Both the position numbers and the translations under genes were made by a program. The notes beneath the pieces were generated by a model. That model was not told the origin of the DNA and ran no database searches. It saw nothing but the letters and a program-made list of their open reading frames with translations. Positions 56,935 to 63,967 of a DNA stretch of 64,000 bases are shown here, in pieces. The stretch's first letter is position 1. Every line of letters starts with the position of its first letter. The stretch comes from Rhodospirillaceae bacterium SYSU D60007 (GTDB lineage: Bacteria; Pseudomonadota; Alphaproteobacteria; Reyranellales; Reyranellaceae): contig QOCQ01000013.1 in the NCBI GenBank assembly GCA_003574685.1, positions 1-64,000 on the forward strand. The letters run 5' to 3'.

Positions 56935-57366
56935 CTAGCGCGGCTCTACCAGCAGTTCGGCGCCTTCGACGCCGATGATGCGCACCTCGGCGCCGGCCAC
57001 CATGTCGGGGCCGCGCACCGCCCAGCTCGAATCGCCCACACGCGCGCGGCCGCGGCCGCTGACGATCGGCTCCTCCAGCTTGACGATCTGGCCGACCAGG
57101 GCGGCGGCACGCGCATTCAGCGTCGCATGCGCCTTGCCCTTCAGGCGGTTGGCGATGACGGGCCGCAGCAGCAGCGCCGCAATCACGCTGGCAACGGCGA
57201 AGGCGAGGAGCTGGATCTCCAGTCCCATCGACGGCCATACCAGCAGCAGCAGGCCCACGACCGCCGCGCCGATGGCGAGGAACAGGAACAGCACGCCCGG
57301 CAGCGCCAGCTCGCAGACCATCAATATGGCTGCCGCCACCCACCACCACCAGAACACGGTCGTCAT
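56935..57366 (-). CDS. NfeD-like membrane protein
   Basis: This 143-residue protein has three or four hydrophobic segments (about residues 5-60 and a further one) and a small OB-fold domain at the C-terminus with LVGQIVKLEEPIVSGRGRARVGD, of which GRGRARVGDSSW is the NfeD hallmark. NfeD proteins accompany SPFH/band 7 proteins such as the one encoded 45 bases upstream on the same strand; together they act in membrane organisation or quality control. Confidence 0.88.
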   Translation of the reverse strand: MTTVFWWWWVAAAILMVCELALPGVLFLFLAIGAAVVGLLLLVWPSMGLEIQLLAFAVASVIAALLLRPVIANRLKGKAHATLNARAAALVGQIVKLEEPIVSGRGRARVGDSSWAVRGPDMVAGAEVRIIGVEGAELLVEPR

Positions 57367-57411
57367 GGTGTCCCCCGATTACTTCTTGCGGCTGGCGGTT
57401 CTTTTCAATGC

Positions 57412-58422
57412 CTAGCCGCGCTCCCATGGTCCGGGCGCCGATGCCGCGGGCGGCGGCAACGGGGCTGCCGGCTTTACGGCCGCGCCCAGCGCGTCGCGAA
57501 GCTGGCTGCCTTCCCTGGTCAGCTCTGCAAGGCCGCCCAGCGTGCCCATGATGCCGGTTGCCTCGACGGGCAGGAAGAACACCTTGCTGTTGTTCGACGA
57601 GCCCATCGCATGCAGCGCCTCGACGTATTTCTGGCCGAGGAAGTAGTTAATGGCCTGGGCGCCGCCGCTGCCGATCGCGGCCGTCACCACCTGCGTTGCC
57701 TTGGCCTCCGCCTCGGCGGCGCGCTCGCGCGCCTCTGCGTCGCGGAAAGCCGCCTCGCGCCGGCCTTCGGCCTGCAGGATCTGCGACTGCTTCTCGCCCT
57801 CGGCCTTCTTGATCTGCGCTTCGCGGAAGCCCTCGGCCTCCAGGATCTGCGCGCGCTTTTCGCGCTCCGCCTTCATCTGCCGCGCCATGGCCTGGACCAT
57901 GTCCTGCGGCGGGATGATGTCTTTCAGCTCGACACGCAGCACCTTGATGCCCCACGCGTTGGTGGCGTGGTCGATCACCGTCAGAAGCTGGTCGTTGATC
58001 TCGTTGCGCTTGGAGAGCACGTCGTCCAGCGCCATGCTGCCCATGACGTTGCGGATGTTGGTCAGGGCGAGATTGGTCATCGCCTGCACCAGATGGCGCA
58101 CCTCGTAGGCAGCGGCACGCGCATCGATCACCTGGTAAAAGGCCACCGCATCGACGGCCACGATGGCGTTGTCCTTGGTGATCACCTGCTGCTGGGGAAT
58201 GTCGAGCACCGACTCCTGCATGTTGATGCGCGCGCCTACGCGCTCGATGATCGGCACCATGAAATTCAGGCCGGGCCGCAGCACGCGCGTGTACTGGCCG
58301 AAGCGCTCGACGGTCCATTCCCAGCCCTGCGGCACCGTACGCACCGCCTGGAACAGGATCACAACCGCGATGACGACCGCGAGCACCGCAAACAAAAGAA
58401 GAACCAAGCCACCCGCGCTCAT
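57412..58422 (-). CDS. SPFH/band 7 protein (QmcA/stomatin-like)
   Basis: This 336-residue protein has an N-terminal membrane helix (residues 5-27), the band 7/SPFH domain (about 28-180, with VPQGWEWTVERFGQYTRVL and RVELKDIIPP), and an Ala/Glu-rich coiled coil (about 180-260) ending in a Pro-rich tail. It probably forms ring-shaped oligomers in membrane microdomains, working with the NfeD protein. GGAGG precedes the ATG. Confidence 0.92.
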   Translation of the reverse strand: MSAGGLVLLLFAVLAVVIAVVILFQAVRTVPQGWEWTVERFGQYTRVLRPGLNFMVPIIERVGARINMQESVLDIPQQQVITKDNAIVAVDAVAFYQVIDARAAAYEVRHLVQAMTNLALTNIRNVMGSMALDDVLSKRNEINDQLLTVIDHATNAWGIKVLRVELKDIIPPQDMVQAMARQMKAEREKRAQILEAEGFREAQIKKAEGEKQSQILQAEGRREAAFRDAEARERAAEAEAKATQVVTAAIGSGGAQAINYFLGQKYVEALHAMGSSNNSKVFFLPVEATGIMGTLGGLAELTREGSQLRDALGAAVKPAAPLPPPAASAPGPWERG

Positions 58423-58567
58423 CGCGTACCTCCCTCCTGTACCCCTGCGCCCCCCAATGGGCACCCAGGATCAAGCTAGCAGACTTGAGCGCATACTCAA
58501 AGCACCACTCCCTCGCGCGGAGGTCCTGGCGTAGGGTGTCGGTCTGCGTATCGAGCCGGAGTCTGCC

Positions 58568-60400: not shown

Positions 60401-61501
60401 TCAGTAGCCGAAGCGGGCGGCGGTGGCCGACGTGATTTCGCGGATGGTGTTCCCCTCGGCCTCATCCAGGCCGGCCACGCAGTAGTCGGGGGCACGCAGG
60501 CGGTTGACCTGGGTTGAGATCCAGTCGGGGCCGGCGTCGAGCCCGGCATGCGCCAGCACGCGGCCAAGGGTTTCGGCTCCGCGACTACAGAGATCTTCGA
60601 AGCGGACCGGCAGCACGACAGCCCGCAAGGCAGCATCACGCGCGAGCCGGTCGGCTATCGTCGCATGCAGGAGATTCCAGTAGAGGCTCCACCCTTCGAC
60701 TTCGCGTTTTGCCTGCCAGAGGCGCTCGATCTCGGCGACCAGCGGCGTGTTTCCCGGGTTGATTGGCCTGCGGTCCAGACCGAACTCGAAATGACCGACG
60801 CGCTGCATGTAGCGAAGCGCGGCCGGGTGATCCCTTTCGGCTTCACTGAAGCGCCGGTGCTGGCGCATCAGCGACATGATATGCGATACCGGCTCGCGAA
60901 CGGGCAGGATGAAGCGCGCGTCGGGGAACATGCCGATCAGGGCGCCCAGGCGCACGATGTTGTAGTTACCCTTGGACAGATACCGGCTTCCGCTGCGCAA
61001 CCACAACAGCTTGCGGATGTGATCCCGGTAATGCGCCTCAAATCCCGGTGCCGCGCCGTTGCGATCCAGCGTGTTGTCGCGTTCCGGATCGTGGCAGTGC
61101 GGATGGAAGGCCATCCATAGCATTTCCTCGATCGCCTCGGGACTGTCGGGTGTGACCGGTATCCCGTCGCCATGGGCGCGATCGCGCGCCGTACCAGGGC
61201 GAGCGTAGAGACGTCGCGCGACACGATCCCAGAATACCGGCGCCAGAACTCCGGGATAGTCACGGTAGCGGTGCGTGACAGTGTCATCGTGGGCAGCAAG
61301 GCACTCCAGCAGGATCGTGCTGCCCGATCGCGCGAGGCCGCAGATGAAAATCGGTGCCCGGATCTCGATCTGCCGCAGCTCGTGCTCGAGTTGCCGCGTC
61401 TCGAAATTGCCGATGTGCCGCAGCAGCCGGGGCCGCCGCGCCAGCCATCCGCCCACAAGATCCAGCCACGGCTCGACATGAAATCCGGCGTGGACATTCA
61501 T
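60401..61501 (-). CDS. Sulfotransferase family protein
   Basis: This 366-residue PAPS-dependent sulfotransferase has the 5'-phosphosulfate-binding loop ICGLARSGST (residues 53-62) and the 3'-phosphate site RFILPVREPVSHIMS near 206. It is longer than average and no membrane segment is seen. It overlaps the membrane-protein gene by 4 bases and is the last gene of a cluster with an arylsulfotransferase. Possible acceptors are lipids or exopolysaccharides. Confidence 0.88.
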   Translation of the reverse strand: MNVHAGFHVEPWLDLVGGWLARRPRLLRHIGNFETRQLEHELRQIEIRAPIFICGLARSGSTILLECLAAHDDTVTHRYRDYPGVLAPVFWDRVARRLYARPGTARDRAHGDGIPVTPDSPEAIEEMLWMAFHPHCHDPERDNTLDRNGAAPGFEAHYRDHIRKLLWLRSGSRYLSKGNYNIVRLGALIGMFPDARFILPVREPVSHIMSLMRQHRRFSEAERDHPAALRYMQRVGHFEFGLDRRPINPGNTPLVAEIERLWQAKREVEGWSLYWNLLHATIADRLARDAALRAVVLPVRFEDLCSRGAETLGRVLAHAGLDAGPDWISTQVNRLRAPDYCVAGLDEAEGNTIREITSATAARFGY

Positions 61502-62220
61502 TGGAGCCTCGCTGCGCGCTTGATGAGCAACGACACGGCAATGAGCGTTCCCAGAAACAGCGCTTCCCAGCTCCCCAGCCAGCCAGGCGCAATATCGAGA
61601 TACCGCCGCACAGGCAGGCCGATGTCGATGCGTTCAGCCGGTCCGTCGGGGGCAAGATAGCCGATCGGGTTGCCGGCGACGAAATTCCACCAGACTCGCT
61701 TGTGGACGACCGGCACGGCCATGTGAAGCGGCACTGCCTGAACGACCTCGCCGTCCGCGTCGAGGATTTCGACCCGTGCAACACCGCCGCCATCCACCAC
61801 CCACCGGATATGCGCCGCAGGCGGCCGTACCTGCAGGACGGGTATCTCGTCCACCGGAGGAAAATCATACCCATAGCGGGCGTCGAGCCACGTCATCAGG
61901 CACAGCACCGGCACGGCGGCGGCCAGCACGGGGCCGATCACGAGCCCGATGCGTCCCAGCGCCACGGCAAGCAGGCGGCGGCTCACGGCCAGTCCTTCGC
62001 CCGCTCCGGTCTGCTCGTCGCGCAGCATGATCGTCAGCCGGTGCTGCTCGGCGATCGACCAGGCTATCCTGTGCTGCGGCGAGAGGAGGCCGTAGGTTCC
62101 CATCGACAGCAGCGCGGCTACTACCCCCCAGATGCCGAGGCGTGCCCAGGGCGGCAGGGCGCCAAGTGCGGCGGCATCGGCCCACGACAGCAGCGGCGAT
62201 GGCAGATCCAGCAGGCCCAT
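61498..62220 (-). CDS. Polytopic membrane protein of the sulfotransferase cluster
   Basis: This 240-residue protein has membrane helices at about residues 25-47, 88-112 and 215-235, and a periplasmic domain of about 100 residues with IPVLQVRPP and WWNFVAGNPIGYL. The region from SMGTYGLLSPQHRIAW to the second helix recalls EMC3/TMCO1-like (YidC superfamily) proteins, a weak resemblance. It overlaps the sulfotransferase by 4 bases and lies 9 bases after the AYVGPGAG protein, so it is part of the same operon. The function is unknown. Confidence 0.72.
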   Translation of the reverse strand: MGLLDLPSPLLSWADAAALGALPPWARLGIWGVVAALLSMGTYGLLSPQHRIAWSIAEQHRLTIMLRDEQTGAGEGLAVSRRLLAVALGRIGLVIGPVLAAAVPVLCLMTWLDARYGYDFPPVDEIPVLQVRPPAAHIRWVVDGGGVARVEILDADGEVVQAVPLHMAVPVVHKRVWWNFVAGNPIGYLAPDGPAERIDIGLPVRRYLDIAPGWLGSWEALFLGTLIAVSLLIKRAARLQ

Positions 62221-62229
62221 CCAGACTGC

Positions 62230-62478
62230 TCAGGAGTCGCGGTGCAGCGGCTCGGCAGCTGGCGGCCGCTCGGCCTTTCGCAGGCCCGCGCGCCGCGCCC
62301 GGCGCAGACGCAGAGGCAACAGGATCAGGAAGCCAATGGCAGCGGCTATAGCGGCCAAGAGCGCGCCGAAGGCAGCGAGCAGCCCCAGGCCGGCGCCCGG
62401 CCCCACGTAGGCCCAGGCCGGCATGGCAGGGATCCAGACCAGGACGGTCATCAGGCTCAGGCGCATCGTCCGGGACAT
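62230..62478 (-). CDS. Small AYVGPGAG membrane protein
   Basis: This 82-residue protein has a signal-type N-terminus cleaved near PAWA, then the conserved AYVGPGAGLG motif leading into one membrane helix, and a basic then polar tail. Proteins with this motif are short, unnamed, and seen next to sulfotransferase or phosphodiesterase genes. GAGGAGG lies 6 bases before the ATG at 62478, so this start is preferred over a GTG 18 bases earlier. Confidence 0.7.
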   Translation of the reverse strand: MSRTMRLSLMTVLVWIPAMPAWAYVGPGAGLGLLAAFGALLAAIAAAIGFLILLPLRLRRARRAGLRKAERPPAAEPLHRDS

Positions 62479-62524
62479 GCAGGCCCTCCTCTTCACACCA
62501 TCGGCGAAGCGCCGGCGGCCACCG

Positions 62525-63967
62525 CTAGTTCAATCCGAGACTGTCGCGAAACGCAGGCGTAAAGTCCCGCGTCGGGTCGAGCCGGTCGACCCAGAAAATG
62601 ATCGGGACACGGTTCTGGCGCGGCCCGCCGCGCACCGGGTTCACGAATTCCCAGACCACATCACCCTCCGGCGTCACCTCAAGGACGCGGCCGGCCATCG
62701 ATTCGACGATCAGGGTGTTGCCGTTGGCGAGCCGGTTCTGGCTCGATCGCGTCACGCTGTCGAGTGGCTCATCGGGGTGGTCGCCATAGCTCCATTCGAT
62801 CCTGAGACTGGGCGGATCGAACTCCAGCACGCGCGAGCGACCCGGGCCGCCGACGCCGCCCTCGTTGTCGAACAGCAGAATTCGGCCGGAAGGCAGCACC
62901 TCGGCATCATGCTGGCGAATCCACGGGCCGGTCATGACGGACACGAGGCGGTCGTTCTCCATGTCGAACAGCGCCAGCGTGCTGAGCTCGCGCAGCGACA
63001 CCAGCAGGTGGCCGGCGCGGCTGCCCGGCATACCGGCGACAGGCTGTGTCAGCACATGCACCGAATTGGCGTGCAGATAGTCGCCGTTGCTGGCGTGCGC
63101 CTGCCAGGACCCGAAATGCAGGCGCCGGCCGAAGCGCGACTGTGCGAAGGCGTTGATCAGCCACAACTTGCCCAGTTCCTGTCCGTCCGGCGACAGCCTG
63201 ACGACGAAATCGTCGATGCGCGGGCGGGTCAGGTGCTCGTGCTGCGGCACGATTGCCTGCGAAATCCGGTGCGTCAGCACGTAAATGTTGCCGGCCGGAT
63301 CGAAAGTGAAATCGTGATGGGCGTTTTCGAAGTAGCGCCAGATCGGCCGGCTGTTGCGATCGACCTTCACCAGACCGTAACCCCACGGCGTATCGCCGAT
63401 GGCGGTATAGAGCGCCAGCAGGTCGCCGTTGGGAAAGACGTGCGCCTTCTCGATGTAGATGAAGCGGTCGGGTCGCGGCTTCTTCACGCCGGCGCCCGGC
63501 TGCCACACCTGGCTGTAAGGGATATGCCACTCGTGCACGACGCGCCCGGTCATGTCGATCAGGAACGCGCGGTGATCGTGGCCGGATGTGTAAAGCGTCA
63601 GACCTGCCTGGGCGCGCGCGGCGTCGTGGCGGATCACCCCGCGCGCACTGGTGCGCGCCGGCTGCCAGAAATCGGTTTTCAGCGGATTGTTGTAGGCAAG
63701 CTCGCGGTCATACAGCGCCACGCCACCCTGAAACGCGCGGCGCAGCGGTTCTGCCGGAAAGGCGCGCACATACATCGCGAAGCTGCCGCCGACAAAGGCC
63801 AGAAAGGCGATGCAGACAACGGCCGCGACAGCGTACCAGCGCCCGGAACCCGCCCACAACGCTGCCGCTCGAACGTCCTCGCCTTCCGAGGACCGGCATG
63901 GCATACCCGACTCCATCACGCCCTCCAGGGCCGATCCCGGCGCGATGATGGTATTGATGATGCGCAC
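62525..63967 (-). CDS. Arylsulfotransferase (ASST) family membrane protein
   Basis: This 480-residue protein has one N-terminal membrane helix (about residues 42-65) and an extracytoplasmic beta-propeller. Its motifs HHDFTFDPAGNIYVLTHR, LHANSVHVL and SQNRLANGNTLIVESMAGRVLEV (key parts HHDF, HANSV, RLANGNTLI) match the Arylsulfotran_2 family. It is probably an envelope enzyme acting on sulfate esters or aryl alcohols. The frame stays open to the window edge, so the GTG at 63967 may not be the true start; ATG codons at 63916 and 63904 are alternatives. Confidence 0.82.
   Translation of the reverse strand: MRIINTIIAPGSALEGVMESGMPCRSSEGEDVRAAALWAGSGRWYAVAAVVCIAFLAFVGGSFAMYVRAFPAEPLRRAFQGGVALYDRELAYNNPLKTDFWQPARTSARGVIRHDAARAQAGLTLYTSGHDHRAFLIDMTGRVVHEWHIPYSQVWQPGAGVKKPRPDRFIYIEKAHVFPNGDLLALYTAIGDTPWGYGLVKVDRNSRPIWRYFENAHHDFTFDPAGNIYVLTHRISQAIVPQHEHLTRPRIDDFVVRLSPDGQELGKLWLINAFAQSRFGRRLHFGSWQAHASNGDYLHANSVHVLTQPVAGMPGSRAGHLLVSLRELSTLALFDMENDRLVSVMTGPWIRQHDAEVLPSGRILLFDNEGGVGGPGRSRVLEFDPPSLRIEWSYGDHPDEPLDSVTRSSQNRLANGNTLIVESMAGRVLEVTPEGDVVWEFVNPVRGGPRQNRVPIIFWVDRLDPTRDFTPAFRDSLGLN

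Follow-up and report, generated by a model that had tools for sequence, protein, structure and literature searches.

In the caprazamycin pathway of Streptomyces, the 3'-phosphoadenosine-5'-phosphosulfate (PAPS)-dependent sulfotransferase Cpz8 sulfates a triketide pyrone, and the PAPS-independent enzyme Cpz4 passes the sulfate to the antibiotic (PMC6731281, PMC13426309). AssT, the aryl-sulfate sulfotransferase (ASST) of E. coli, is an orphan enzyme whose natural donor is unidentified, and according to a recent review, the aryl sulfotransferases still lack an identified natural substrate after more than 40 years (PMC13426309). Here, a cluster of four genes is described that lies at positions 60401–63967 of a 64,000-nucleotide stretch (the window) of contig QOCQ01000013.1 from Rhodospirillaceae bacterium SYSU D60007. 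It encodes an ASST-like protein (ASST), a small protein with the motif AYVGPGAG (AYVG), a membrane protein (MEM), and a sulfotransferase (SULT). The cluster is real and widely conserved, and its proposed mechanism is plausible; the principle of two-step sulfation is known, and the membrane component is new. By analogy, and with somewhat better than even confidence, the cluster was interpreted as a membrane operon for sulfuryl transfer by a relay of the Cpz8/Cpz4 kind, in which MEM and AYVG serve as dock and passage.

All four open reading frames (ORFs) are on the minus strand, as are the features within them that are located below, and their presence, overlap, and gaps were verified to the base. 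An earlier reading made from the sequence alone (the sequence-only reading) had described four tightly spaced genes with one 4-base overlap and gaps of 9 and 46 bases, and this arrangement was borne out. From upstream to downstream, the order is ASST, AYVG, MEM, and SULT. ASST (62525–63967) comprises 480 amino acids (aa) as given, but its true start is uncertain: upstream, the frame stays open as far as 64144, and residues 1 to ~27 are poorly conserved and modelled with low confidence. The gap between ASST and AYVG (62230–62496, 88 aa) is 28 bases when AYVG starts at GTG 62496, and 46 bases when it starts at ATG 62478 (82 aa). AYVG ends at 62230, 9 bases ahead of MEM (61498–62220, 240 aa), which overlaps SULT (60401–61501, 366 aa) by 4 bases.

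To determine the distribution of the genes, an even set of 385 genomes from the class of the window was used as the main sample, in which the SULT subfamily was called by profile A6 (E ≤ 1e-40) and ASST by profile A4. The SULT subfamily was found in 12 genomes from 12 different families, and all 12 also carried ASST, which was present in 28 genomes overall. The association was significant by Fisher's exact test (p = 1.6e-15), the genomes being not fully independent, though the 12 came from 12 families. For 10 of these 12 genomes, SULT and ASST shared a contig and lay within a few kilobases; in the two exceptions, the contig differed (G237) or ASST was on another contig (G268). As SULT never occurred without ASST, while ASST occurred without SULT, SULT appears to depend on ASST, which would be the pattern if SULT feeds ASST. 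Six of the 385 class genomes and 8 of 398 genomes from the phylum carried MEM. Two surveys together gave ten distinct stand-alone MEM genes, besides two further MEM genomes, G268 and G776, that are treated separately; all ten adjoined AYVG and SULT, and nine adjoined ASST. For the tenth, in G237, three matches to ASST lie on different contigs. A partial transposase-like ORF (L018:2008-2502) lies directly upstream of AYVG in that genome, where ASST would be expected.

A scan of named genomes with the ASST alignment yielded 80 ASST loci, and all four genes were present in 26 of them. The order and strand of the window were kept in 22 of the 26, and the remaining four were permuted or expanded; in Mesorhizobium, the order was AYVG-MEM-SULT-ASST, and two loci carried two or three ASST genes. 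Full clusters occurred in Thalassospira, Mesorhizobium, Methyloligella, Lutibaculum, Pelagibius, Kordiimonas, Parvibaculum, Nitrococcus, and other Alpha- and Gammaproteobacteria, and also in one Desulfatitalea bin, a metagenome bin that is possibly misassigned. The flanks of the full clusters contained no further conserved gene family, save between close relatives. Moreover, the pairwise distance matrices of ASST, MEM, and SULT correlated (r 0.83–0.88), and among 11 proteobacterial genomes with an incomplete ASST locus, AYVG-MEM-SULT was found elsewhere in 10. SULT and ASST are a co-inherited unit across families and classes, and this co-inheritance probably extends across phyla. The four families, which the sequence-only reading had taken as one cluster, were found together far outside close relatives (SULT with ASST in 12 families, and all four genes at 26 of 80 loci), rather than rarely there.

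In the case of ASST, Pfam matches were obtained to Arylsulfotran_2 (PF14269, 2.1e-21) and Arylsulfotrans (PF05935, 1.3e-8), and the AF2 model (pLDDT 91.7) shows an N-terminal membrane helix followed by a beta-propeller. The best solved structural match was Cpz4 (9kf6; Foldseek 1.4e-16; VIA Z 33.0, 314 aligned, root-mean-square deviation (rmsd) 2.8), which was also the top sequence match in the PDB. E. coli AssT (3ets) came next (Z 26.2, 317 aligned, rmsd 3.4). ASST was aligned with AssT by profile bridging to PF05935 proteins and HMMER against 3elq. H353 (62909–62911) fell on H436 of AssT, the transiently sulfated nucleophile (PMC13426309), and was invariant in 60 relatives; this register was confirmed by the H436N mutant chain 4p04, which has N at that column. 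H299 and N301 of the H-x-N motif (63065–63073), corresponding to H356 and N358, were likewise both invariant in the 60 relatives, and R326 (62990–62992), corresponding to R374, was nearly invariant. For H252 of AssT, H217 or H218 is the likely equivalent, the AssT alignment starting only at residue 259. Loss of the catalytic histidine had been suspected, there being no invariant histidine after H353, and was ruled out by the alignment of H353 with H436. As judged from the alignment and model, the protein has the fold and sulfuryl site of aryl-sulfate sulfotransferases, and PAPS-independent transfer is predicted. Tandem arrays of three ASST-like genes were also seen (L052:929-5082, L066:3432-7420, and L073:6368-10835).

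SULT matched Sulfotransfer_3 (PF13469) at 2.9e-18, with 67.4 bits against a cut-off of 27. Its predicted 5'-phosphosulfate-binding motif, GLARSGSTILLECL (residues 55–68, 61298–61339), was conserved in 34 relatives, in which R58, G60, T62, L65, and L68 were invariant and G55, L56, A57, and L64 nearly so; the location of this motif (GLARSGST) is known from the family. The predicted 3'-phosphate-binding residues lie between R202 and S210 (60872–60898), and R202, P204, and S210 were invariant in the same relatives. No transmembrane (TM) segment was found in SULT by hydropathy. The nearest solved relatives by sequence were 2zq5, which was deposited as uncharacterised and which we take to be a mycobacterial sulfotransferase, and protein-tyrosine sulfotransferases. 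SULT is thus classified by its family match and motifs as a cytosolic PAPS-type sulfotransferase. The pairing of such an enzyme with a periplasmic ASST-type protein, put forward in the sequence-only reading, agrees with the PF13469 match and binding motifs on one side and the propeller fold and H353 on the other, with ASST being membrane-anchored.

Cpz8 and Cpz4, reportedly first described by Tang et al. in 2013, are likewise a clustered PAPS sulfotransferase and ASST. In that relay, the carrier is the triketide pyrone and the acceptor is an antibiotic sugar, whereas the present cluster has no conserved carrier synthase, includes two membrane proteins in the unit, and encodes a membrane-anchored ASST. 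E. coli AssT (3ELQ) and other bacterial ASSTs share the propeller fold and the H436, H356, N358, and R374 equivalents with the present protein, which differs from AssT in its N-terminal TM anchor, its linkage to a PAPS sulfotransferase, and the apparent lack of T501.

MEM and AYVG received no Pfam or NCBIfam assignment, and in this sense they were two unnamed membrane proteins, as the sequence-only reading had stated; MEM, however, was found to be a homologue of the Oxa1 superfamily. In its AF2 model (pLDDT 91.2), TM1, a helical hairpin, and TM2 are followed by a beta domain (about residues 118–215) and a third membrane helix. Profile A5, built for MEM, retrieved a single significant PDB sequence, the archaeal YidC-like protein MJ0480 (5c8j, E 1e-8), and a second profile of mostly distant MEM copies linked to alkaline phosphatase (AlkP)-fold genes again picked MJ0480 (3.8e-9), with the third TM helix colinear. 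The Oxa1-like core (TM1, hairpin, and TM2; residues 2–118, 61867–62217) was colinear with residues 4–123 of MJ0480, and its modelled helices span residues 24–46, 49–67, and 73–116. VIA-align of the model placed TMCO1 (7tut) first (Z 10.9, rmsd 3.2, 136 aligned; next row 7.6), a Z that is insufficient by itself for a helical protein. MEM had no significant fold match when Foldseek was used by itself, and a direct phmmer search with L111 gave no match in the PDB. None of 34 MEM members matched Pfam EMC3_TMCO1 (PF01956), and a distant member searched separately reached E 0.074; as no copy attains the PF01956 cut-off, MEM was named an Oxa1-superfamily homologue rather than an EMC3_TMCO1 member. 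According to profiles and model, MEM is a distant Oxa1/DUF106-superfamily homologue of the inner membrane, with a presumed orientation, an inserted and putatively extracytoplasmic beta domain, and a possible insertase activity. MEM shares the three-TM core with helical hairpin with the archaeal DUF106/YidC-like MJ0480, TMCO1, and EMC3; unlike them, it is bacterial, has the additional beta domain, and has sulfation and AlkP enzymes as genomic partners. In L020, a signal-like N-terminus is followed by an AlkP domain and then by MEM in one fusion protein, which fits the N-out topology of the Oxa1 superfamily. A planctomycete MEM of 149 aa lacking the beta domain (L145:2891-3337) adjoins AYVG and SULT.

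AYVG has a signal peptide ending in A-x-A, then YVGPGAG, one TM helix (peak residues 42–60), and a basic tail. The AYVGPGAG motif (62389–62412) stands at the predicted signal-peptide cleavage point, and A-x-A followed by YVGPGAG was seen in nearly all copies. A hidden Markov model built from six copies recovered AYVG in all full clusters. Class members without MEM retained ASST and SULT, usually together with an AYVG-like gene, and several of these clusters carried a membrane protein of 125–138 aa at the MEM position, which in L172 is fused to the SULT N-terminus. Such substitutes between AYVG and SULT (L170:3967-4353, L174:5399-5776, L175:4993-5367, L172:4987-5436, and L171:5129-5542) have a common D..KE motif; no homology between them and MEM was detectable.

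In several phyla, AlkP-fold proteins have this AYVG segment as their N-terminus (L073, L136, L138, L139, and L144). In bins of Planctomycetes, Eisenbacteria, Myxococcota, and Caldithrix-like bacteria, AYVG-AlkP1, AlkP2, a ~65-aa protein ending in LKGLGYIS, and MEM occur together; non-proteobacterial operons of this type lie at L136:4613-10140, L139:7420-12937, L141:7525-13020, L144:2652-7967, and L143:4575-9760. A sulfotransferase-like gene directly follows MEM in three AlkP operons (L141 and L144, confirmed as PF13469, and L142, by similarity), and CysD-CysN stand directly ahead of the AYVG-AlkP operon in L138. In G776 (L146), the genes for AYVG, an AlkP-fold (PF01663) protein, and MEM are consecutive; SULT (PF13469) is divergent, and a PF00884 sulfatase with TPR repeats (L146:10729-12486) lies downstream. 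G268 has MEM as the C-terminal portion of an AlkP protein; its AYVG and SULT genes adjoin each other at another locus (L176), and its ASST lies separately. The AlkP-fold (PF01663) operons of Planctomycetes, Eisenbacteria, Myxococcota, and others contain the same AYVG and MEM parts, some beside PF13469 sulfotransferases or CysDN, and differ from the present cluster in having AlkP enzymes in the place of ASST beside MEM and the additional LKGLGYIS protein. Because of these variants, MEM and AYVG are regarded as common to two kinds of enzyme, with sulfation genes around both. It is tentatively suggested that they form an undescribed bacterial Oxa1/EMC3-like module, that this module handles a sulfated or phosphorylated carrier instead of a protein, by moving or presenting it, and that it is common to the ASST propeller in Proteobacteria and to AlkP-fold enzymes in many other phyla. 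No published description of AlkP-fold operons with AYVGPGAG and MEM-like genes was found. Similarly, the open-access literature searched for AYVGPGAG, for an ASST operon in Alphaproteobacteria, and for an EMC3-like protein with a sulfotransferase held no earlier description of the present system.

The gene order, co-occurrence, folds, active-site residues, and homology of MEM to MJ0480 are the basis in data for the relay. In the proposed mechanism, SULT would move sulfate from PAPS onto a membrane-bound carrier, probably aromatic or lipid-linked, at the inner face of the membrane. MEM and AYVG would dock SULT there through the predicted cytosolic hairpin of MEM, and the membrane groove of MEM, together with its extracytoplasmic beta domain, might assist the passage of the sulfated head group to the outer face. 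ASST, anchored in the inner membrane through its N-terminal helix, would take the sulfate onto H353 and pass it to an envelope acceptor. From the caprazamycin analogy, we infer the SULT product as ASST donor, and likewise the carrier, the membrane crossing, and the acceptor. A quinol or another membrane phenol as carrier is a guess. The sequence-only reading had proposed a two-step system that sulfates a carrier inside and transfers sulfate outside; its enzymatic core is supported by the co-inherited SULT and ASST with their catalytic residues and by the Cpz8/Cpz4 precedent, while the carrier, crossing, and outside transfer stay conjectural.

Several observations weigh against this relay. ASST occurred without SULT in 16 of the 28 ASST genomes, which included strong ASST matches in one genus, and MEM was absent in 6 of the 12 SULT genomes, with another small membrane protein or nothing at its position. 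T501 of AssT, described as an assisting residue of the active site, falls on R407 in a weakly aligned region and seems not to be conserved. Known Oxa1 proteins transport polypeptides rather than sulfated small molecules. The donor, acceptor, and location are all putative, and no conserved carrier-making gene was found in the flanks of the cluster. Among 13 cluster genomes, type III polyketide synthase (PF00195) scored above the cut-off in five, elsewhere in the genome, and gave no match in another five; with none in the flanks, a fixed carrier source of this kind was not supported.

As a less likely alternative, MEM and AYVG might be dedicated biogenesis factors, a private insertase for the N-terminal helix of ASST or for another sulfate-handling membrane protein, with SULT and ASST still in one pathway. 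This agrees with the TM anchor of ASST and with the homology of MEM to insertases; Oxa1-superfamily members also pair with small partners in the membrane (PMC8675477), a part that AYVG might play. Nevertheless, many ASST homologues occur without MEM, and its fusion to AlkP in L020 and its position directly after AlkP genes in many phyla suit a working subunit better. Less probable still is that ASST uses foreign aryl sulfates outside, while SULT, independently, produces a sulfated lipid or glycan of the envelope, the grouping being due to a shared acceptor or regulation. AssT does use exogenous aryl sulfates, and its natural donors are unidentified (PMC13426309); the one-sided dependence of SULT on ASST in the 385 genomes argues otherwise. 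It is improbable that ASST undoes the work of SULT, as an enzyme that removes sulfate or serves quality control, comparable to the sulfatase or AlkP-fold partners in relatives. L146, where an AlkP-fold protein takes the place of ASST beside SULT, AYVG, and MEM with a sulfatase adjoining, would fit such a role, but the active-site residues of ASST match those of ping-pong transferases. Chance or lineage synteny of four unrelated neighbours could explain why the cluster is patchy in its own family, in which a close ASST relative occurs in only 2 of 37 genomes, the genome of the window included. This explanation was rejected and is hardly credible given the conservation across families and classes, the unrelated flanks, the permuted Mesorhizobium order, and the p value of 1.6e-15.

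If the relay is true, the ASST family, without a clear purpose for forty years, would gain a natural role together with a natural source of sulfate. The conserved pairing of ASST and a PAPS sulfotransferase in one operon suggests that the donor has an internal origin, and the question of the natural substrate becomes testable. Furthermore, MEM would represent bacterial EMC3/TMCO1 relatives outside YidC that are tied to envelope sulfation, and it could show either an insertase fold put to another use or an enzyme recruiting its own insertase.

Next to the cluster, immediately beyond the end of the window, a plus-strand gene at 64174–64977 of the contig (L002:4174-4977), divergent from ASST, encodes an adenosine 5'-phosphosulfate (APS)-kinase-like domain (PF01583, 4.8e-14) followed by a nucleotidyltransferase-like domain. 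This fusion gene is also adjacent in G007 (L007) and directly upstream of ASST in L044, amounting to only three ASST loci in all. It may help the supply of PAPS; it was rejected as the only source, since another APS kinase domain, a full-length one, is encoded in a 639-aa frame of this genome and the neighbour occurs at only three ASST loci. The sequence-only reading had pointed upstream for sulfatase or phosphodiesterase genes, and these were found in relatives as AlkP-fold phosphodiesterases and, once, a sulfatase, whereas the next gene here is the APS-kinase-like fusion. Elsewhere in the window, an ordinary-looking pair of NfeD-like and SPFH/stomatin-like genes is located at 56935–58464.

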